This document shows positions 1 through 50,029 of a DNA stretch of 64,000 nt, piece by piece. The stretch is from Gammaproteobacteria bacterium (lineage in GTDB: Bacteria; Pseudomonadota; Gammaproteobacteria; Pseudomonadales; Cellvibrionaceae). The first letter of the stretch is position 1, and each line of letters starts with the position of its first letter. Location of the stretch: assembly GCA_004173475.1 (NCBI GenBank), contig SEBU01000006.1, positions 1 through 64,000 of the forward strand. Reading direction: 5' to 3'. The notes under the pieces were generated by a model. That model was not told where the DNA came from. It made no database searches and saw nothing but the letters and a program-made list of their open reading frames with translations. A program made the translations under genes and the position numbers.

Positions 1-105
1 TATTTTTTATCTTTGTAAACCCTTATTTTCATTCGGATTTTACTTTTCTTGCCGAACCATCATTTTAATCCGGAGATCAAAAAAGCCTGCTCGGCGAGGG
101 CGCGA

Positions 106-134
106 ACTATAGGGACGCATCAACAACCTTGCAA
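106..134 (-). promoter_or_regulatory. rRNA/tRNA-type promoter firing out of the left edge
   Basis: On the minus strand TTGCAA (129-134) and TATAGT (106-111) are separated by exactly 17 bases and followed by a GC-rich discriminator, TCGCGCCC. This is the architecture of stringently controlled stable-RNA promoters, and it resembles the tRNA-fMet promoter elsewhere in the window, which shares the CCCTATA core. Transcription would start near base 99 and leave the window. In Pseudomonas aeruginosa pssA-ilvC lies next to an rRNA operon, so an rRNA operon to the left is the likely target. That target is inference; the promoter elements are seen directly. Confidence 0.6.
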
Positions 135-37434: not shown

Positions 37435-38490
37435 TTACTTCAATCCTAAAATTCGACGATTCGCCGGATGGTCCGTACCACCACTTGCAAAATCATCAAA
37501 TGCGCGTTCAGTAACTTTAATAATATGTTGCGCAATAAATGGCGCGCCTTCTGCCGCACCAACCTCTGGATGTTTCAAACAACATTCCCATTCCAAAACA
37601 GCCCAGCCTTCATAATTATATGCTGCGAATTTTGAGAAAATTTGTTTGAAATCTACTTGGCCATCACCCAACGAGCGGAAGCGGCCTGCGCGGTCTACCC
37701 AGTTTTCGTAGCCGCCGTAAACACCTTGCTGAGCCGTTGGATTAAATTCCGCGTCTTTAACATGGAACATTTTGATGCGGTCATGGTAACGATCAATAAA
37801 CGCTAAATAATCGAGCTGCTGTAAAACAAAATGGGATGGGTCAAACAAAATATTAGCGCGTGGATGATTATCAACGGCTTTCAAAAAGCGTTCAAAGGTT
37901 GCGCCATCGTGCAAGTCTTCTCCTGGGTGAATTTCATAACAGAGATCTACACCGGCCTCATCAAATGCATCAAGAATAGGTTTCCAGCGTTTCGCTAATT
38001 CGCCAAAACCAGCGTCAACTAAACCAGCGGGGCGCTGCGGCCAGGGATACAAATACGGCCACAATAAAGCTCCGGAAAAAGTTGCATGAGCTTTTAAACC
38101 TAAATTTTTACTGGCCTTCGCCGCCAACAATAATTGCTCAACAGCCCACTCCTGGCGAGCAGTTGGATTTTTACGAACCGATTCAGATGCAAAGCCGTCA
38201 AACATTTCATCGTACGCAGGATGAACCGCAACCAATTGTCCCTGCAAATGCGTCGACAACTCCGTGGGCACCAAACCATGGTACGCGAGTGTGTGCAAAA
38301 AATTGTCGCAATATTCCTGGCTGTTAGCCGCAGCCTCTAAATCAAAGACACGCTTGTCCCATGTTGGAATTTGCACGCCCTTAAAACCAAGGCTTGCAAC
38401 CCAACCGGCAATGCTATCGAGGGAATTGAAAGGGGCCGTATCGCTTAGAAACTGAGCAAGGAAAATCGCAGGGCCTTTAAGGGTTTTCAT
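37435..38490 (-). CDS. Sugar phosphate isomerase/epimerase-like TIM-barrel protein
   Basis: A 351-residue xylose-isomerase-like TIM barrel (AP endonuclease family 2 fold). Metal-ligand strands are visible: CYEIHPGEDLHDG near 185, NILFDPSHFVLQQ near 215, and MFHVKDAEF near 240, with a final VLEWECCL near 295. Such enzymes isomerise, epimerise or dehydrate keto-sugars and often accompany Gfo/Idh oxidoreductases. First gene of the sugar trio; the Gfo gene follows after a 286-base gap occupied by the repeat element. Substrate unknown. Confidence 0.83.
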   Translation of the reverse strand: MKTLKGPAIFLAQFLSDTAPFNSLDSIAGWVASLGFKGVQIPTWDKRVFDLEAAANSQEYCDNFLHTLAYHGLVPTELSTHLQGQLVAVHPAYDEMFDGFASESVRKNPTARQEWAVEQLLLAAKASKNLGLKAHATFSGALLWPYLYPWPQRPAGLVDAGFGELAKRWKPILDAFDEAGVDLCYEIHPGEDLHDGATFERFLKAVDNHPRANILFDPSHFVLQQLDYLAFIDRYHDRIKMFHVKDAEFNPTAQQGVYGGYENWVDRAGRFRSLGDGQVDFKQIFSKFAAYNYEGWAVLEWECCLKHPEVGAAEGAPFIAQHIIKVTERAFDDFASGGTDHPANRRILGLK

Positions 38491-38878
38491 GGTTTCACCT
38501 TTTAATTATTTACGTCACGCATTTATTAACTGCAAAAAGTACTGTGCTAGTGCAGCAGCCACGCACCTTCAAAGATACAACGGTCTGATGTGATAATAGA
38601 TACTAGAGGATTCTTACAGAAAATTGTAACCCCATCGACTCAAGATGCACTTTATTCGAACTTGTAGCCCTAGGCGATACCAAAAAACAGTTATTTACAC
38701 TTACTGACACGCCAATAATTCTTAGGCCAGATGTGCTTTTTTATATTTATGCGAGGAAAAACGCGACAGGAATCCATTGCCAACTGTTTCCATCTTTTAT
38801 TACCCGGCAGCCTAATGCTTTTTAAAGACGATTTATAAACGCATTCCTAAGGCTTTAGATTCACGATCGGTTTTTTAC
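38491..38878. other. Intergenic stretch, nothing recognised
   Basis: About 390 bases between the isomerase start and the terminator of the outer-membrane protein gene. No gene, RNA or recognisable repeat is seen. Confidence 0.5.
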
Positions 38879-38917
38879 CAAAAAAAATCCCCGCTGTCTC
38901 TCAACAGCAGGGATTTT
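38879..38917 (-). terminator. Terminator of the outer-membrane protein gene
   Basis: Stem AAAATCCC-CGCTGT / ACAGCAGGGATTTT with a six-base loop; on the minus strand a run of eight Ts follows. It ends 17 bases past the stop. Confidence 0.82.
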
Positions 38918-38933
38918 AGTCAGTAACAATTAA

Positions 38934-39494
38934 TTAAAAATGATAAGTTGCACCAACAGTCAATGCGGATAATTTAAGATCATCCCATTTTGCGTATTGG
39001 CTATATTCGGCATTCAAAGCAAATTCGGGCGTTAAATTGTAACTCGCACCTATACCGAAAAGACCTCTTGTTTTCGAATCCGATTCTTGTTCGTCCGGAA
39101 GACCTGTGTTGTCACTAATATCGAGTTCAGCGTCAATGTTAGCAAAACCTAAACGACCGTAAACGTTAAATACGTCATTCACCGGCAGCCTACCCACGAT
39201 AGACGCTTGCAGCGCAGTGACTGATAAAGTATCAGACCAGCTGTCGAAACCGTCATTACCTCTATCATTGAACGAACCCAAATCGCGGTACGTAACCTCG
39301 ATAGATGCAAACTGATTCAAATCAAAACCTGCACCAATTGAATAAGTCGTATCGTCTTTCTCCAATGAGTAACCATCCAAAGCTTCATAATCAGCGTTGC
39401 TTTGTCCAATGTCACCCAAAATATAAAAACCATCTGCCATCGCAGGGAATGATAATGCACTTAATAGGCTAGCCAATAGAATTTGCTTTTTCAT
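38934..39494 (-). CDS. Outer-membrane beta-barrel protein (OmpA/OmpW-like)
   Basis: The frame is open to 39560, but GGAA eight bases before the ATG at 39494 and a textbook signal peptide (MKKQILLASLLSALSFPAMA) fix the start, giving 186 residues. The mature part alternates hydrophobic and polar residues in eight strand pairs, with IGAGFDLNQFASIEVTYRDLG near 70, and ends in phenylalanine (TVGATYHF), the Bam recognition signature. An eight-stranded porin-like barrel without a peptidoglycan-binding domain is predicted. Function unknown. Confidence 0.82.
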   Translation of the reverse strand: MKKQILLASLLSALSFPAMADGFYILGDIGQSNADYEALDGYSLEKDDTTYSIGAGFDLNQFASIEVTYRDLGSFNDRGNDGFDSWSDTLSVTALQASIVGRLPVNDVFNVYGRLGFANIDAELDISDNTGLPDEQESDSKTRGLFGIGASYNLTPEFALNAEYSQYAKWDDLKLSALTVGATYHF

Positions 39495-39727
39495 GATTTT
39501 TCCTTTAATGGTAAAGACTGAATATTTTAAGATGCACCTTTGCAAGATGTCTTGGAGCAAACTTTACCAATCACGAATGAATTTAACCTGAACATTCAAA
39601 AAGCTTATTTAGATGCGCCATAAGATTTACTGCTGCTTCGCTAGTTGAAGCTTGAAAATGCAAACCATTAGGAATTTATTGTCATTCGTTTTCTACGCGC
39701 ATTACGGTGGCAACTTTATTTAAATTT

Positions 39728-40147
39728 TTATTTAACCGCAATCAATTCAATTTCAATTAAATGTTCGGGACTGTAAAGGCGCGATACCTGCACCCAAGTT
39801 GCGGCCGGAAAATTACCATCGCTGTAAAAATTTTTACGCACAGGAATTTGTTGTTTTAGCGACTCTATGTCCAAAGCATAAATATTTTCTTTCACAATAT
39901 TATTTGGTTTGAGATCGTAGCGAGCTAGAAGTTTTTCCAGTTCCTTGTAGCAAACTGTCACAGCCTCCTGATAATTTTGGCCGCCGCAAGTTACACCTGA
40001 AATGTGGTAAGTATTTCCGGTTTGTACAACAGCGGAGTAACCAATATCTGGCTCCCATGAATTAATTATATGGCGCGCAATGGTCGTGGGCTTGTGAGCG
40101 CAACTCACTAATATTAAGGTCATGCAACCTAGCAAGACTAATCGCAT
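39728..40147 (-). CDS. RidA-like protein exported as a lipoprotein
   Basis: A 139-residue protein. Residues 1-16 are a lipoprotein signal with lipobox LVSC, followed by a Rid-family chorismate-mutase-like fold (YSAVVQTGNTYHISGVTCGG, then the late QVSRLYSPEHLIEIELIAV). Cytosolic RidA hydrolyses reactive enamines using an arginine in the PARS motif; here the aligned motif reads PAAT, so the arginine is missing. Deaminase activity is therefore unlikely and a binding role in the envelope is more plausible. Both deviations are seen directly; alignment is from memory of E. coli RidA. Confidence 0.78.
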   Translation of the reverse strand: MRLVLLGCMTLILVSCAHKPTTIARHIINSWEPDIGYSAVVQTGNTYHISGVTCGGQNYQEAVTVCYKELEKLLARYDLKPNNIVKENIYALDIESLKQQIPVRKNFYSDGNFPAATWVQVSRLYSPEHLIEIELIAVK

Positions 40148-40184
40148 AATATTTTCTCATTGGCTGAAATAGTTTCGAGTAAAT

Positions 40185-40215
40185 AAAAAAGCCCCGATAA
40201 AATCGAGGCTTTTTC
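40185..40215 (-). terminator. Terminator after pnp
   Basis: AAAAAGCCCCGAT / ATCGAGGCTTTTT hairpin with one mismatch and a short A loop, 19 bases past the pnp stop; T-rich on the minus strand. Confidence 0.82.
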
Positions 40216-40234
40216 GGAGGAAATTCTTTAAGAA

Positions 40235-42385
40235 TTAATCCAAGGTCGCGTCATCAGTAGCAATTGATGATGTAGCTGCAGGCTTTGAACCGCCCGCTTC
40301 ATCAGCCAAAGCTTCTTTGATAGAAAGTTTGATGCGGCCGCGTTGGTCTACGTCCAAACATTTTACCTTCACAACTTGGCCTTCTTTCAAATAATCACTC
40401 ACGTTAGCAACGCGCTCGTCAGCGATTTGTGAAATATGTACCAAGCCGTCTTTACCCGGCAAGAAGTTTACGAATGCGCCGAAATCTACGATGCGCACAA
40501 CAGTACCTTCGTAAATTGCGCCGATTTCAGCTTCAGCAACTATGCCTTGAACGCGATAGATTGCCGCTTGCAAAGCTTCGTTATTGTCGGCGTAAATTTT
40601 AACGGTGCCGTCATCATCGATATCGATAGAAGAACCGGTTTCTTCAGTAATTGAACGGATAGTTGCGCCGCCTTTACCGATGATGTCGCGAATCTTATCT
40701 GGATGAATCTTGATAGTTTCAAAACGTGGTGCGTTCTCGCTAACAACTTTGCGAGAGGTCGCCAATATCTTGTTCATCTCGCCGAGAATATGTAAACGTG
40801 CAGCAAGAGCTTGCTCAAGTGCAATTTCCATAATCTCTTCGGTGATACCTTCAATTTTGATGTCCATTTGCAGTGCAGTTACACCGCTAGTGGTACCAGC
40901 TACTTTGAAGTCCATGTCGCCGAGGTGATCTTCATCACCAAGGATGTCGGTAAGAACTGCGAAGCCGTCAGCTTCTTTAACAAGGCCCATTGCGATACCC
41001 GCAACTGGAGCTTTCAGCGGAACGCCCGCATCCATCAAAGCCAAGCTCGCGCCACATACAGAAGCCATTGAGCTTGAACCGTTAGATTCAGTAATTTCGC
41101 TTACTACACGCAATGTGTACGGGAAATCTGCTTCAGCAGGAAGAACGGCTGCAACACCGCGACGCGCCAAACGGCCGTGACCAATTTCACGACGACCAGT
41201 TGCGCCCATACGACCACACTCGCCTACCGAGAACGGAGGGAAGTTGTAGTGCAACATGAATGCGTCTTTTTTAGAGCCTTCAAGGAAGTCGATGATTTGT
41301 GCATCACGTGCGTTACCAAGAGTTGCTACAACGAGCGCTTGGGTTTCACCGCGTGTGAACAAGGCAGAGCCGTGAGCTTTGCCCAACACGCCAACCTCAA
41401 CTTGAATAGGACGTACGGTTTTGTTGTCGCGACCATCGATACGTGGTTGGCCAGCAACGATGTTTGCACGTACCAAGCGGTACTCTAAAGTGCCGAATGC
41501 CGCTTTAACATCGTCTTCGCTAAAACCGGTGGCTTCGACCGCTAGTTCAGCAATTGCTTGGTTGCGAAGTTCACCCAAACGATCATAGCGCTTGGCTTTG
41601 TCGGTGATGCGGTAAGCCATACTGATAGAGTCAGCAAAACCTTTTACCAAAGCATCTTTCAGAGCAGCATTTTCTACTGGAGCAGCCCATTCCCAACGCG
41701 GCTTGCCAGCGTCGCGCGCCAACTCGGCACATGCCTGGATAACAGCTTGCATTTCCTGGTGAGCATAGAGAACCGCGCCCAACATAGTGTCTTCTGGCAA
41801 TTCTTTTGCTTCAGATTCCACCATCAACACCGCATCTTTAGTACCGGCAACCACCATGTCCAACTCTGACGTTGCGAGCTGAGCAAAACTTGGGTTGAGT
41901 ATGTAGCCTTCAGCTTGCGTGTAAGCAACGCGCGCAGCACCCACTGGACCATTGAATGGGATACCAGAAATGGCGAGAGCCGCTGAAGTGCCGATTAACG
42001 CCGCGATATCAGGATCGTGTTGTTTATTGGTCGATACAACCGTACATACCACTTGTACTTCGTTCAGAAAACCTTCTGGAAACAGTGGGCGAATAGGACG
42101 ATCGATCAAACGTGATGTTAATGTTTCTTTTTCGGAAGGACGACCTTCACGCTTCAAATAACCACCGGGAATACGGCCGGCAGCGTAGCTTTTTTCTTGA
42201 TAATGTACAGACAGTGGGAAGAAGTCTTGCCCTGGTGATGCTTTTTTAGCACCTACGACAGTACAAAGCACAGATACTTCATCAATTGTCACCAGCACTG
42301 CACCGGTTGCTTGACGGGCGATACGGCCAGTTTCTAGCGTTACGGTTTGATTGCCGTATTGGAACTTTTTAATAATCGGATTCAC
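40235..42385 (-). CDS. pnp: Polynucleotide phosphorylase
   Basis: Phosphorolytic 3'-5' exoribonuclease of the RNA degradosome. Domains in order: two RNase PH domains (about 1-215 and 310-540), a KH domain ([16 protein letters not shown] near 558) and an S1 domain from about 620. The long frame starts at an ATG at 42412 without a ribosome binding site. The GTG at 42385 is preceded by AAGGA at seven bases and begins [18 protein letters not shown], matching E. coli Pnp, so I take it (716 residues). Usual partner rpsO upstream is broken here. Confidence 0.96.
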
Positions 42386-42446
42386 TCTTTTATCCTTTGG
42401 TTGCGTAGACATTTTCTCACGAATTGGTGCTAGGCATTGCGGCGTT

Positions 42447-42504
42447 AAAATTTTTCAATAATTGCTCATTTACCTCAGTAAACTCCGCTTTCTTGAAAAA
42501 TTTT
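42447..42504. promoter_or_regulatory. Perfect 12-base inverted repeat in the pnp leader
   Basis: AAAATTTTTCAA (42447-42458) and its exact complement TTGAAAAATTTT (42493-42504) enclose 34 bases, about 60 bases before the pnp start. E. coli pnp is autoregulated through an RNase III-cleaved leader stem; this may be the equivalent. The element is seen; the function is inference. Confidence 0.45.
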
Positions 42505-42692
42505 GCCTTGCACTGCCGTCACTGTGCCATATTCAAATTCAGCTAATTTTTCGTGTAAAAAATCTTTAGATTGTTTTTACGCGCTATAAATTTTTTCGTT
42601 CAAGTTTTAAATAAAATCGCCTCCTGCCATTGCGCCATTTCTGCTCTATTTGACGCACAACTCCGTAATTTTTCAGCTCATCAAAAACAAGA

Positions 42693-42712
42693 ATGCCCGC
42701 CGAAGCGGGCAT
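42693..42712 (-). terminator. rpsO terminator
   Basis: Perfect eight-base stem ATGCCCGC around CGAA, followed on the minus strand by TCTTGTTTTTG. It lies nine bases beyond the rpsO stop and remains intact although the gene is broken. Confidence 0.88.
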
Positions 42713-42720
42713 GGATCAAA

Positions 42721-42791
42721 TTAACGGCGCAGACCCAATTTTTGAATCAGTGCAGTGTAACGTGATGAGTCTCAGAAGCACTCAGTGCCAT
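42721..42791 (-). pseudogene. rpsO: rpsO (ribosomal protein S15) with an internal deletion
   Basis: On the minus strand GAGGAAA lies six bases before an ATG whose frame reads MALSASET, the N-terminus of S15. After roughly eight codons the sequence jumps, in a different frame, to codons for SRYTALIQKLGLRR and a TAA, which is the C-terminus of S15. The canonical gene is about 270 bases; 71 remain, so around 199 bases are missing, not a multiple of three. As it stands the frame yields only a 14-residue peptide. Position between truB and pnp and the intact terminator identify the locus beyond doubt. Either a genuine deletion or an assembly error; no other rpsO exists in the window. Confidence 0.85.
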
Positions 42792-42943
42792 GATATTTCC
42801 TCATTTAATATGCGATTAAATTACAGCCCGCCCGTGCATATTTACAGGTGGGTTGTCGCGGTGATTATCTCTTTCTAAAAAAGGATTTCACCGCAGGCTT
42901 TTTATCGATTGGCAATGCCGTATCGATAAATTCTTTTCTTCCA

Positions 42944-43000
42944 TTCACCCTAAGCTTGTCGAAGGACCTATTGAACGCCCTTCGACAAGCTCAGGGTGAA
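42944..43000. repeat. Dispersed palindromic repeat
   Basis: Arms TTCACCCT-AGCTTGTCGAAGG and its complement (22 bases each, one mismatch) flank a 13-base loop. The core CCTTCGACAAGCTCAGG is a palindromic element I know to recur between genes in many proteobacterial genomes; it is therefore probably a mobile or REP-like unit here. It lies just beyond the truB stop on the minus strand and may act as a transcript end. Confidence 0.7.
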
Positions 43001-43017
43001 CGGATACTTAAAACTAG

Positions 43018-43983
43018 CTACTGCTCGTTCGCCGAGCGGTTAGCAATAATTCGTTTGGGCGCTACGCGACCGTCTTCTGTTACTTCGCCCAAACCTAGAA
43101 ATTGTTGGGCAAGCTGATCGGTTTGTGCGCAAAAGACGCGCACCATATCACCTTGCCTGCCAACGCGATAGACCTGCGGATCCATCACTGGATTTCCCAA
43201 GCGAAAGTAATGCGCACTGGTATCCGGTAAGATGATCGCAGGCAAGCTTGCGACTGGCGCATCAGCGCTCAAAAGCCGCTGATCCAAAGCCTCATAGCCG
43301 CCTTGCTCAAAATCTCTCTCAAGATCCTCAAGCGTCAAACATTGGCTTTCTAGAAAAGCACCAGCCGCGGAGCGATGCAGGCTTTTAACGTGAGCACCGC
43401 AGCCCAAAGCAAACCCCAAATCTTCCGCAATGGAACGGATGTAAGTGCCTTTGCTGCAACGAACATCCACATCAACTTCAGCCCGTTCACCAGGGCGAAA
43501 ACCTAAAATATCTATCGCAAAAACCGTGACCGGGCGTGGTTGACGCTCAATTTCAATACCATCCCGGGCCAACTTATAGAGAGGCTGGCCTTGATGTTTC
43601 AATGCCGAAAACATAGACGGTACTTGCAAAATATCGCCGGTCAGCGGGATTAATGCTTTTTTAATGGCATCCAGCGTAACGCCCGCTGCGGAGGATTCTG
43701 CTATGACTTCACCATCAGCATCGCTGGTATTGGTACGCTGGCCGATTAGAAAAGTACTTCGATAGCGTTTATCAGCGTCTAGCAAAAACTGCGAAAATTT
43801 AGTCGCCTCGCCAAAACATAGCGGCAAAACACCTGTGGCTAATGGGTCTAGCGCGCCAGTATGCCCGGCTTTTTCTACAAAAAATAATCGCTTCGCGCGC
43901 TGCAATGCATGATTGGATGTCATACCTGCAGGCTTCATCAACAACAAAACACCATCAACCGGACGGCCTTTTCTACGCGCCAT
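43018..43983 (-). CDS. truB: tRNA pseudouridine(55) synthase
   Basis: Makes pseudouridine 55 in the T-loop of tRNAs. The catalytic aspartate motif is GHTGALDPLATGVLPLC near residue 40, with the conserved KRYRSTFLIGQRTNTSDADG stretch near 75 and a C-terminal PUA-type domain. At 321 residues it is full length. The ATG shares its first base with the rbfA stop (TAATG), so translation is coupled. Confidence 0.97.
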   Translation of the reverse strand: MARRKGRPVDGVLLLMKPAGMTSNHALQRAKRLFFVEKAGHTGALDPLATGVLPLCFGEATKFSQFLLDADKRYRSTFLIGQRTNTSDADGEVIAESSAAGVTLDAIKKALIPLTGDILQVPSMFSALKHQGQPLYKLARDGIEIERQPRPVTVFAIDILGFRPGERAEVDVDVRCSKGTYIRSIAEDLGFALGCGAHVKSLHRSAAGAFLESQCLTLEDLERDFEQGGYEALDQRLLSADAPVASLPAIILPDTSAHYFRLGNPVMDPQVYRVGRQGDMVRVFCAQTDQLAQQFLGLGEVTEDGRVAPKRIIANRSANEQ

Positions 43984-44417
43984 TAAGACTTCTCACCGTC
44001 CGAATCACTATCATTTGCCGCATCAAGGTTTTCATTAGGCTCGTCATCATGAACATGCTGACTGTCTTCTTTCAACGCGCGATCAATCAGGAAAGAAATT
44101 TCCTGGCCACGAATTGCCGTTTTATCGTAGATAAATTGCAACTTTGGAACGCTGCGCATAATTAATTCTTTGGCGATAAAGCCCCGCAAAAAGCCGCTAG
44201 CTTTGTTTAACACAGACGCTGCTGCAATACTTTCTGCTTCATCCGAGCCTACGAAAGTTACATAAACTTTCGCGTATGCCATATCGCGCGTGACTGTCAC
44301 CGCGTTGATATTGACCATACCTATGCGCGGGTCGCGAATTTCCTGGGCAATTACTTGGCCCAAAATACGCTGGATGGCATCTGACACGCGGTCTGATCTT
44401 GTAAATTCTCTTGGCAT
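43983..44417 (-). CDS. rbfA: Ribosome-binding factor A
   Basis: KH-like cold-shock protein that matures the 30S subunit by acting on 16S rRNA. The open frame extends to 44492, but family alignment starts at MPREFTRSDRVSDAIQR (44417), with GAGG about ten bases upstream. The signature EIRDPRIGMVNINAVTVTRD lies near residue 26. The C-terminal tail of about 25 residues is acidic and asparagine-rich. 144 residues. Confidence 0.95.
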   Translation of the reverse strand: MPREFTRSDRVSDAIQRILGQVIAQEIRDPRIGMVNINAVTVTRDMAYAKVYVTFVGSDEAESIAAASVLNKASGFLRGFIAKELIMRSVPKLQFIYDKTAIRGQEISFLIDRALKEDSQHVHDDEPNENLDAANDSDSDGEKS

Positions 44418-44507
44418 TAGCCGTAAACCTCTAAATCCGACCACATCAAAGCTATTCCGCTCACTACGCTTTGAAGCGGTCTGAACATACATAACAAAAA
44501 TAATAAA

Positions 44508-44534
44508 GCCCCGAACGCGGTTAAACGTCGGGGC
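44508..44534 (-). terminator. Intrinsic terminator between infB and rbfA
   Basis: GCCCCGA/TCGGGGC seven-base stem with an additional CG pair, followed on the minus strand by CTTTATTATTTTT. It would stop or reduce transcription from infB into rbfA-truB-pnp, splitting the usual nusA operon. Confidence 0.7.
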
Positions 44535-44555
44535 ACTAGAGTTTTACGCAAGCAA

Positions 44556-47297
44556 TTAAAGCTTACGTGCTACCTCTTTGACTTCATATACTTCGATCTG
44601 ATCACCGACTTTTACGTCGTAATTCTTCACGCCGATACCACACTCGGTACCGTTACGAACTTCATTCACATCATCTTTGAAACGACGCAGAGATTCCAAT
44701 TCACCTTGGAAAATCACCACGTTGTCACGCAATACACGGATTGGTTTGCTGCGGTACACGGTACCTTCGATAACCATACAACCGGCAACCTGACCAAACT
44801 TAGGCGATGTAAAGACTTCGCGCACGTTTGCAATACCAACGATGGTTTCAATGCGCTCGGGCGACAACATACCGCTCAGTGCTGCTTTGATCTCATCCAG
44901 CAATTGGTAGATGATGCTGTAGTAACGAATATCAACGCCTTCAGCTTCTGCCATACGGCGGGTGTCACCGTCAGCACGAACGTTGAAGCCGAGGATAATT
45001 GCACCCGTTGTCAAAGCGAGGTTCACGTCATTTTCAGTAATTCCACCGATGCCGGAAGAAATTACATTAACCTGAACTTCCTCGTTACCTATCTCAGCCA
45101 ATGAAGACTGGATGGCTTCGAGAGAACCACGTACGTCGGTTTTAACAACAACAGACAGTGTTTTCTTCTGACCTGCGTCCATACCGGCAAACATATTTTC
45201 TAGTTTGGCAGCAGTGTGACGCGCAAGTTTCTCCTGACGCTCTTTCTCAGCACGGAATTGCGCAACTTCACGGGCTTTACGCTCGTCAGTCAGAACCACG
45301 AAGTCATCACCAGCGCTTGGCGCAGTATCTAAACCAAGGATTTCAACCGGAGTAGACGGGCCAGCATCTTTTACTTGTTCGCCACGCTCGTTGCTCATGG
45401 CGCGTACGCGTCCGTAACTTTGACCTGCAAGAATCAAATCGCCTTGTTTCAAGGTGCCTTGCTGAACCAGCACGGTTGCCACCGTACCGCGGCCTTTTTC
45501 GACACGAGATTCAATCACCACACCTTTAGCCGCAGCATTTACTACCGCGTTCAACTCAAGAACTTCAGCTTGCAATGAGATCGCCTCAAGCAATTCGTCG
45601 ATGCCTTGTCCGGTGTGGGCAGATACTTCGATAAATTGTGTGTCGCCACCGTAATTTTCCGGGATAACGCCTTTAACTACCAATTCGCTTTTTACACGCT
45701 CTGGATCAGCACTGGCTTTATCAATTTTATTGATCGCAACAACAATCGGAACACCGGCGGCACGAGCATGGAGAATCGCTTCTTCAGTTTGCGGCATAAC
45801 ACCGTCGTCCGCAGCAACTACCAAGATAACCACGTCAGTCGCTTTCGCACCGCGAGCACGCATTGCGGTAAACGCGGCGTGACCGGGAGTATCAAGGAAC
45901 GTGATTTCGCCACGGCTGGTTGGAACACGATAAGCACCGATATGCTGAGTAATACCACCGGCTTCGCCAGCAGCAACCTTCGCTTCACGAATGTAGTCGA
46001 GCAATGATGTTTTACCGTGGTCAACGTGACCCATAACGGTAACAACCGGAGCGCGGTGAACCGTTTCGCCTTCAGTTTCCAAAGACTTTTCCAGCGCATG
46101 TTCGATAGCGTCTGAGCTAACCAGGTTTGGCTGGTGACCCATTTCTTCGACAAGTAACGCGGCAGTATCCTGATCAATGGATTCGTTCATGGATGCCATA
46201 ACGCCCATCTTCATCAAGCGCTTAATCACCTCGCCAACCTTAACGGTTAGACGCTGAGCCAGCTCGGAAACAACGATGAATTCTGGAACATCAACTTCGT
46301 GAACAATTTTGGAAGTCGGCTTTTTAAACGCATGTTTGTTGTGTTTTTTATGGCTCGCACGAAGGTGCGTACGACGCGCTAATACATCGCTATCTTCGCT
46401 CTCGTCAGCGACAATATCCAACAACTCAACCTTGCTGGTTTTCTTGCCAGCGCCGCCTTTTTTGGCAGCTTTGCCGCCTGGACCGCGCTTGCGAGACTCA
46501 CCGCCATCATCGGCATCGTCATCGTGTTTGTGATTCTTTTTGTGGCCGTGACCATGGCCAACTCTTGCATCTTCAATCGACACTGGCGCAGCCGGCGGCT
46601 TTGGCTTATTGGCATTGCGCGGTGATGCAGCAGCCTCTTTTACAGCAGGCTTTTGCTCAGTACGCGGAGCATCAGCTGGACGCTTTGGAGCTTGCGGCTG
46701 TAACGCTTGACGTTTGGCTTCTTCGCGCGCCTTGATATCCGCAAGTCGCTGAGCTTCTTCTGACTGGCGACGCTCAATAGCAGCTCTACGCTTCTCTTCC
46801 ACACCATCGGTGAAAGAAATGCGATGTGAAGGTGCAGGAACAGCCTCGGTAGGTGGTGTTTCTGGAGCAGAAGGCTCCACTGCCTCTTCGACCACAACGG
46901 GCTCGGGTGCAACCTCAACAACAGGTGCTTTTACAACTTCTGCAACCGGCTCAGCAACCAGCTCGATTTCCGACTCTTGCTCTGGCTGCACGTCTTCATC
47001 GTCACGCTTAACGTAAGTTCTTTTTTTACGAACTTCGACGTTAACAGTTTTGCGCGCGGATCCACTACCCGTCTTGATAGTAGTGGTAGTTTTGCGCTGC
47101 AAAGTAATTTTCTTAGGCTCGCCTGTTAACTCGCCGTGACTGGTTTTCAAAAAAGCCAGCAACCTCTGCTTTTCATCATCAGATACGCGCGCTTCAGGCG
47201 ATTTTTGGCTCAAGCCAGCCTCTTGCATTTGTTTTAGCAATCGATCTACCGGTGCACCGACCGATTTGGCGAGTTCGCTAACTGTTACTTCTGCCAT
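44556..47297 (-). CDS. infB: Translation initiation factor IF-2
   Basis: GTPase that brings initiator fMet-tRNA to the 30S subunit. An IF2_N domain occupies about 1-55, then a low-complexity Lys/Glu/Ala/Pro linker to about residue 330, a second IF2_N-like part near 335, and the G domain with G1 GHVDHGKT near 423, then [11 protein letters not shown] and NKIDKA. Domains II, III and IV follow to the end. 913 residues, long like other gammaproteobacterial IF2; internal initiations (IF2-beta/gamma) are possible but not evident. Confidence 0.98.
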
Positions 47298-47356
47298 TGT
47301 TTTTCCTCAGGGATAGTTCTTGGCTCAAATTCAAATTGGTCGTTTCATAGCTGGCA

Positions 47357-48838
47357 TTATGCAAACCATGGTTCACGAGCCTTCATAATCAGCGCTGCTG
47401 CACGCGTAGCGTCAACACCTTCAATACCGGATAAGTCATCAACTGATTGTTCAGCTAGATCTTCCATTGTGATAATGCCGCGACTTGCTAGGCTAATCGC
47501 GAGGGATTGATCCATGCCTTCCATATTGAGCAAATCTTCTGCCGGCGCCACGCCTTCAAGGCGTTCTTCCGAAGCCAATGCCTGGGTCAACAAGGCATCT
47601 TTAGCGCGAGCACGTAATTCTTCGGCGATATCTTCATCAAAGCCTTCAATAGCCAACATTTCTTCCAGCGGAACATAGGCAACTTCTTCAAGAGTCGTGA
47701 AACCCTCTTCAACCAATACTGCTGCCACATCCTCATCCACATCCAGCGCATTCATGAAGATCTGAATGAAGCTACCAGACTCCGCTTGCTGTTTGGCTTG
47801 CCAATCGGCAACGCTCATGACGTTAATGTTCCAGCCAGTTAAATCACAGGCCAAACGTACGTTTTGACCACCACGACCAATCGCCATAGCCAAATTATCT
47901 TCGTTAACCGCCAAGTCCATTGAACCTGCGTCTTCATCTACCACGATGGATTCGATTTCAGCCGGAGACATAGCGTTGATAACAAATTGCGCCGGGTTAT
48001 CGTCCCACAGCACTATATCAACACGCTCGTTTCCAAGTTCGTTCGATACCGCCTGTACACGTGAACCACGCATACCAACACATGCACCAACTGGATCAAT
48101 ACGGCCATCGTTGGTTTTTACTGCAATTTTCGCGCGCAAACCTGGGTCGCGGGCAGCACCTTTGATTTCGATAATGTCTTCAGCGATCTCTGGCACTTCA
48201 ATTTTGAATAGCTCTACCAGCATTTGCGGATGGGAACGACTCAAAAATAATTGCGGACCACGATTTTCGTTGCGTACTTCCAATAACAAAGCGCGAATAC
48301 GATCACCCATGCGGAAAATTTCACGGCCAATTAATTGATCGCGCGGGAGCAAACCTTCCGCGTTATTTCCGAGATCAACGATAATGCTATCGCGTGTCAC
48401 TTTCTTAACAGTACCGCTAATTAATTCACCCATACGGTCGCGATATTCATCGACCATTTGAGCACGCTCAGCTTCACGAACTTTTTGTACGATAACTTGT
48501 TTTGCAGTTTGTGCAGCAATGCGACCAAAATCAGCGTTTTCAATTTTCTCGCGGTAGGTATCACCAACACTAACCTTGGAATCTTTTTCACGTGCTTCAT
48601 CTAAATAAAGTTGCGTGCCCAACTCTGCCATCACATCATCGGCTACAACATCCCAAATGCGGAAAGTTTCGTAATCGCCCGATTGACGATTGATATGCAC
48701 TTCTACGGTTGAATCTTCGTCAAAACGTTTTTTGGTGGCCATCGCCAAAGCGCTTTCAATCGCCTGGAAAATTAACTCTTTATCAACACCTTTTTCGTTA
48801 GACACCGCATCAGCGACCAATAAAATCTCTTTTGCCAT
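47357..48838 (-). CDS. nusA: Transcription termination/antitermination protein NusA
   Basis: Binds RNA polymerase and nascent RNA to control pausing, termination and antitermination. An N-terminal domain (1-130), S1 domain (about 135-200), two KH domains ([24 protein letters not shown] near 253 and [12 protein letters not shown] near 322) and two C-terminal acidic repeats follow in order. 493 residues, like E. coli. In the operon with rimP and infB. Confidence 0.98.
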
Positions 48839-48982
48839 TATTTAACCTCTGTTAACTCCTGAAACTAATCGCACCGCAATTAGCTAACGGGTGGCTGAAA
48901 ATACGTGCAATTTTTATTTGTATCGCACATGACTAAAAATAATTTGTTACCAAGTGAATCTTTTTCTCGTGAAAATTGTTTT

Positions 48983-49480
48983 TTATTTTTTTTCTTTTAG
49001 CTCATCAATTTTCGAAATAATCTCATCGTAGCGCGGAACTATATTGGCCTTATCTATGGCATCAATGGGAAGTAAAAGATCTTTACCTTCAACATTAATA
49101 ACAACATCCCCATTTTCAACTTTTACAATTTCGCCCTTAAAACGACGACGGCCATCGCGTGCCATACGCAAACGGACATTGACTGTTTCACCTACATAAC
49201 GCGCGTAATGGGACGGTGCGTATAGAGGACGATCCATTCCAGGTGAGGAAACTTCAAGCGTATATTCGCCATCAATTGGATCTTCAACATCCATCACTGC
49301 GCTAATTTGGCGACTCACTTTTTCGCAATCTTCCAGCGACACGCCGGACGGCCCATCAATAAAAATACGCAGTGTTGTGTAGCGACCCTGGGTTAAATAT
49401 TCCAACCCCCAAAGTTCACAACCCAATGAAGCCACCACAGGCTCAATCAGGTTGTGCAATATTTCTTGCTTTGATGCCAT
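48983..49480 (-). CDS. rimP: Ribosome maturation factor RimP
   Basis: Helps assemble the 30S subunit. The family pattern is LGCELWGLEY near residue 18, TLRIFIDGPSGVSLEDCEKVSRQ near 36 and the conserved YTLEVSSPGMDRPL near 73. At 165 residues it is slightly longer than in E. coli. First protein gene of the rimP-nusA-infB operon, about 330 bases downstream of tRNA-fMet as in other gammaproteobacteria. Confidence 0.97.
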   Translation of the reverse strand: MASKQEILHNLIEPVVASLGCELWGLEYLTQGRYTTLRIFIDGPSGVSLEDCEKVSRQISAVMDVEDPIDGEYTLEVSSPGMDRPLYAPSHYARYVGETVNVRLRMARDGRRRFKGEIVKVENGDVVINVEGKDLLLPIDAIDKANIVPRYDEIISKIDELKEKK

Positions 49481-49677
49481 GCCTCACAAACCTTCTCGCG
49501 GGAGATATAAAATCGTCGAAACCAGAAAAACAAAACCCCAGAAAACACAAATGGGCACAAGGCCCATTCGATCAATACTGCATATGTGGTTGCGAATTCT
49601 TTTAACAAGCTGTCAAAAGACATCAACCCGTCGATGGGGCCAACCCGGCTGAAAATACCAGCACAACCGACACATAC
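49481..49677 (-). other. rimP leader with an attenuator-like hairpin
   Basis: The leader holds a hairpin ATGGGC-ACAAG-GCCCAT (49551-49566) followed on the minus strand by TTTGTGTTTTC, resembling the weak terminator usually found ahead of rimP-nusA and on which NusA autoregulation may act. A minus-strand frame across this region (49728-49447) overlaps the terminator and rimP start and is judged spurious. Confidence 0.5.
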
Positions 49678-49706
49678 AAAAAAACCCCATAAAGGGGCTT
49701 TTTTAA
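49678..49706 (-). terminator. Terminator of tRNA-fMet
   Basis: AAAAAAGCCCCTTTATGGGGTTTTTTT on the minus strand: a short GC-rich stem with loop and seven Ts, about 100 bases after the tRNA. Confidence 0.82.
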
Positions 49707-49808
49707 GCTGAGTAGCTACGTTGGCCAACTCAGAAAATCTGTTAGTGGAAATTCAGTGGAATCTCACACTTGTCTGAAAAATTCGCTCGGAATCTCTACA
49801 GAAAAATT

Positions 49809-49885
<77 letters not shown>

Positions 49886-49924
49886 TCCGTATTCAATTTG
49901 GCTTATGCCTAACTGAGGTCGCGC

Positions 49925-49953
49925 AGTATAGGGACCTACCCGGAAGCGGTCAA
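49925..49953 (-). promoter_or_regulatory. tRNA-fMet promoter
   Basis: TTGACC (49948-49953) and TATACT (49925-49930) are separated by 17 bases on the minus strand, followed by a GC-rich discriminator GCGCGACC typical of stringent control. It lies 40 bases before the tRNA. Confidence 0.78.
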
Positions 49954-50029
49954 GTAAAACTTTACAGCTCAATCACTTAGTATTCGAGAAATTAACAGGA
50001 ATTAATGACATGCGGGTTACAACTTAATA

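Follow-up and report, generated by a model that had tools for sequence, protein, structure and literature searches.

The gene for ribosomal protein S15, rpsO, is reduced to its two ends in the window (the whole stretch of 64,000 nucleotides analysed here, from a Cellvibrio genome referred to as G000), and we consider it highly probable that this apparent deletion is an assembly artefact and not a real feature of the organism; rpsO is very probably intact in the living strain. What favours this explanation is the position of the right edge of the deletion, which is exactly that of a 119-base end of a contig in G003, a congener that shares contig ends with G000.

The remnant, which is encoded on the minus strand and has truB and pnp as its neighbours, retains 71 of about 270 bases (Table 1). 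Read on this strand, TGAGGAAATATC precedes an ATG with its A at 42791 and codons for MALSASE, after which there is an abrupt switch to the sequence of SRYTALIQKLGLRR in another frame, closing with the stop TAA at 42723-42721. The missing length of 199 bases was measured against the congener G017, in which S15 is intact, and the flanks meet at window base 42772. As 199 is not a multiple of three, the frame is broken, and thus no S15 can be read here; an open frame of approximately 89 codons matching PF00312 above the cut-off was not found at this locus. The preliminary description, which reported a gene cut to its two ends with about 199 of 270 bases gone and the frame lost, was confirmed in this respect by the sequence and the G017 alignment. 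No point decay is visible in the remnant, the flanks are also undecayed, and the window contains no N, the junction included. In the intact genes of relatives, the two breakpoints have one base (A) in common, with no direct repeat present at both; a deletion mediated by recombination between repeats was rejected, the overlap of the ends being that single base. An Rfam scan of 38000-50000 at the gathering score returned one tRNA and no match at rpsO.

Table 1. Coordinates of the truncated rpsO gene, its junction and its surroundings in the window.
Feature	Position	Strand	Description
pnp	40235..42412	-	intact; open frame with family model match
119-mer on the right flank	42654..42772	-	same sequence as the 119 bases at the end of G003 contig C91
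hairpin and T-run	42683..42712 (about)	-	GC-rich hairpin, 3' of the rpsO stop; terminator-like, by eye
rpsO remnant	42721..42791	-	19-20 bases from the start and 51-52 from the end of the S15 gene; intervening 199 missing
junction base A	42772	-	fits either flank; hinge of the alignments with G003 and G017; right-flank alignment with G008 ends here
119 bases left of the junction	42772..42890	-	bounded by a G/A difference from G003 at 42891; 119-mer absent from G003; suggestive only
truB	43018..43983	-	intact; open frame with family model match

The genes infB, rbfA, truB and pnp near the remnant are open frames that match their NCBIfam models. General decay of the window was considered and rejected by a comparison of frames with G003, G008 and G017, in which 392 frames of at least 60 aa from stretches of these genomes were searched against the window and 117 matched at 1e-8 or below. 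Eleven rows with an identity of at least 55% had coverage below 90%; these may be antisense frames or variable ends. As the filter of this comparison excludes a frame as short as that of the rpsO remnant, it could also overlook another break of this type. Between truB and rpsO, an inverted repeat was observed at 42940-43002 (TTCACCCTGAGCTTGTCGAAGG, with one mismatch in the other arm). It gave seven matches (E<=0.01) at five places in G000, its own place counted, and a different palindrome was recognized by eye at the same spot in G017; the spot is perhaps a hotspot for REP-like elements. Within the spacer between rpsO and pnp, about 72 bases of the stretch at 42440-42540 are missing in G003, and a 69-base copy with 76% identity is located on G000 contig C1, which may point to a small dispersed element.

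Regarding S15 elsewhere in the genome, G000 comprises 4,729,660 bases in 60 contigs and is not closed. The preliminary description had raised the possibility of a second rpsO and proposed a search of the whole genome, the result of which was negative by both profile and DNA. The PF00312 profile found no S15 in G000 (0 of 1) and matched all 14 control genomes, and a DNA search of the whole assembly with an intact 272-base rpsO query at E values of up to 10 returned 18 matches, consisting of the two remnants described above and 16 of at most 28 bases. When relatives were searched at E<=0.001, 55 of 57 genomes (G000 counted) matched PF00312; the genomes without a match were G000 and G020, the latter of which is 77% complete.

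The comparison of close relatives at truB-pnp, also proposed at the outset, did not lend support to a true deletion. A full-length S15 match was obtained in 16 of the 21 Cellvibrio genomes, and the other five consist of the genome of the window, the incomplete G020, and three in which contig ends or NN interrupt the gene: rpsO of G002 is in two pieces around NN, a contig of G009 ends inside the gene, and in G003 truB is carried by a contig (C212) with its first bases within rpsO and pnp by another (C91) with its last bases within rpsO. The middle of the gene was absent from G003 too in a DNA search with rpsO. The same deletion was found neither in an independent assembly nor in a close relative among the 21 genomes. 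Full-length matches were present, one each, in all nine congeners listed with 10 contigs or fewer, and also in seven congeners of 20 to 670 contigs (G001, G005, G007, G010, G014, G017 and G019). Problems with rpsO are therefore limited to fragmented assemblies, since the 16 full-length genes include all nine of the former group. G010 has a second, partial S15 match, which is probably foreign because it lies on a short contig and adjoins a PNPase that is only 61% identical. TruB was detected in 19 of the 21 genomes of the genus, the window's own counted, and that of G003 is 90% identical to the TruB of the window. Among the TruB matches listed for named genomes, from which nearer records may be omitted, two Cellvibrio records were on top with identities of 72 and 71%.

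The ends of the contigs provide information on the origin of the assembly. Eighty ends of G000 contigs were fetched, and the 48 without N were examined; exact terminal relations numbered seven, of which six measured exactly 119 bases and the remaining one 115. The 40 ends examined in G003 gave three overlaps, all of exactly 119 bases. G000 looks like a metagenome bin, with a terminal overlap fixed at 119 bases in 6/7 relations of G000 and 3/3 of G003; this would be expected of a de Bruijn assembler, MEGAHIT with k 119 and IDBA_UD with maxk 120 being two candidates. Five relations of 119, 119, 119, 115 and 71 bases were found between 51 ends of G000 and the 40 of G003; for two of the three of 119 bases, which lie next to rpmA and rpsD, G000 and G003 end in the identical 119-mer. 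The lengths of 115 and 71 may be accounted for by the formula 2x119-S, in which S is the length of the shared stretch that the contigs flank. Due to the same overlap length and the terminal 119-mers in common, G000 and G003 appear to be two bins of one assembly graph.

The genes at contig ends (fusA, rpmA, rpsD, atpH, metK and ahcY) were named from the translated ends, with rpsD being confirmed by PF00163; a truncation of S4 at the end of contig C2 was considered and rejected, S4 being complete. At the fusA break of G000 the sequence of G003 runs on, and near the atpH break G003 also breaks. The idea that G003 shares every break of G000 was therefore rejected, fusA being continuous in G003. 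Several of these ends deserve mention, and the first two cases below are among the seven terminal relations of G000. Window positions 1-119, the start of contig C5, are identical in reverse complement to the final 119 bases of G000 contig C18, beyond which the sequences diverge, and this is a repeat branch point. The two ends of G000 contig C60 (194,195 bases) overlap each other by exactly 119 bases; this contig is probably a circular replicon or is bounded by one repeat. The translated ends of G000 contigs C4 and C11 and of G003 contig C220 resemble Bacteroidota proteins, as read from the translations, and G000 contig C31 joins G003 contig C220 by 119 bases, as would be seen if a single foreign genome were divided over the two bins.

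The same length recurs at the rpsO junction. The pnp contig of G003 terminates exactly at the base where the right flank of the window begins, and identity between G000 and G003 continues from this base for exactly 119 bases, after which G000 has T (window base 42653) and G003 has C. Among the 21 Cellvibrio genomes, these two alone carry the 119-mer in identical form. Throughout the 20,791 columns aligned between them (matches over 200 bits around rpsO), there is one run of identity of at least 119 bases; it is exactly 119 bases long and lies at the junction. The right edge thus precedes a strain difference by one k-mer and coincides with a contig end of a relative that appears to come from the same graph. 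If the edge is a contig end, the distance of 119 bases is forced, whereas a real deletion needs a chance match. On the left side, no genome sharing the 119-mer next to the junction was seen in a comparison by eye with G003 and ten congeners.

An artefact of this type may arise in a metagenome that holds several Cellvibrio strains and is assembled as a de Bruijn graph with end overlaps of 119 bases. Where strains are identical over at least 119 bases, the common stretch would become a separate piece, with strain-specific contigs ending on either side; ends common to G000 and G003 were demonstrated at loci other than rpsO. In the source assembly of G000, the middle of rpsO, common to the co-occurring strains, would have been lost as a short piece, which we infer from the absence of the same part in G003. 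A subsequent step of joining, scaffolding or curation may then have placed the contigs on its two sides end to end without it. A de Bruijn step alone does not join ends that no reads connect, and because the graph makes no join without k-mers across the ends, an additional joining step has to be assumed.

Several observations are at odds with an artefact. The joining step that it requires is an assumption. A G000 that was intact and, on the left, identical to G003 should have a left contig extending approximately 92 bases further into rpsO; the left flanks of the two genomes have 27 bases in common, and the left edge would need a third strain branching at 42891, of which none was found. A positive gap of approximately 200 bases would be expected from a scaffolder, and there is no N at the junction. 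Not every break in G000 is common to G003, as described for fusA, and fragmentation alone does not break rpsO because the gene is full-length in the seven congeners of 20 to 670 contigs.

A true, recent deletion of 199 bases, leaving the strain, or a part of its population, to live without S15, would take the sequence as given, with its join free of N, and would be consistent with flanks that show no decay, as expected of a recent event, and with the absence of any other S15 from G000. A junction backed by reads would also account for the point at which the left flank stops. Such a loss is not impossible because E. coli strains with rpsO deleted are viable and cold-sensitive, as stated in a review (PMC10931766, citing Bubunenko 2006), in agreement with what the preliminary description had reported of E. 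coli. The right break would, however, have to lie, by coincidence, at a distance of exactly 119 bases from the next difference between G000 and G003 and precisely at a contig end of G003, in assemblies with a usual overlap of 119; moreover, rpsO of G003 is broken up as well, and S15 is missing in 0/9 of the congeners listed with 10 contigs or fewer. Deleted and intact alleles coexisting would explain the left edge, yet would still require the distance of 119 on the right to be a coincidence. We accordingly regard a true deletion as improbable, and consider it just as doubtful that a free-living Cellvibrio population lost S15 recently in a community with congeners that keep it.

It is very improbable that a second rpsO elsewhere supplies S15, with the copy in the window being a remnant. 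The assembly of 60 contigs is not closed and some contig starts read N, which leaves room for such a gene; on the other hand, no S15 was found in G000 by profile or DNA, the nine congeners with 10 contigs or fewer have one match each, the extra partial match in G010 is probably foreign, and the remnant is free of point decay. Therefore, among the possibilities named in the preliminary description, assembly error is favoured by the right edge at the 119-base contig end of G003, a true deletion, on which the title of that description rests, is probably wrong, and a second rpsO is unsupported.

If the deletion were true, this would be a natural bacterium without S15, in which the 30S subunit is assembled without a primary binding protein. 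The case also serves as a warning and a test. When a universal gene seems to be lost, reads are not needed for a check: it can be asked whether the edges of the loss are one assembler k-mer away from strain differences and whether they coincide with contig ends in relatives of the same assembly. In multi-strain metagenomes, short conserved genes such as rpsO are likely to be vulnerable. A limited search of the literature on missing S15 in bacterial genomes found no report to the point, and absence from print is not claimed.

The effects of repeats, of regions common to different genomes and of strain variation were simulated in the COBRA paper, according to which contigs fragmented because of repeats have, in the vast majority of cases, end sequences with a length of maxK (metaSPAdes and MEGAHIT) or maxK-1 (IDBA_UD); its MEGAHIT k lists include k 119 (PMC10914622). 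The ends described in the present study resemble the de Bruijn metagenome contig ends of that paper in having a fixed overlap, here 119, at a sequence common to several places or genomes, but differ in that the flanks in the window are joined and the common piece is missing, instead of being left apart. If the deletion were real, the organism would resemble the E. coli rpsO deletion strains of the review cited above (PMC10931766), which assemble the 30S subunit without S15 and are cold-sensitive; these deletions were made in the laboratory, whereas the loss in the window is doubtful.
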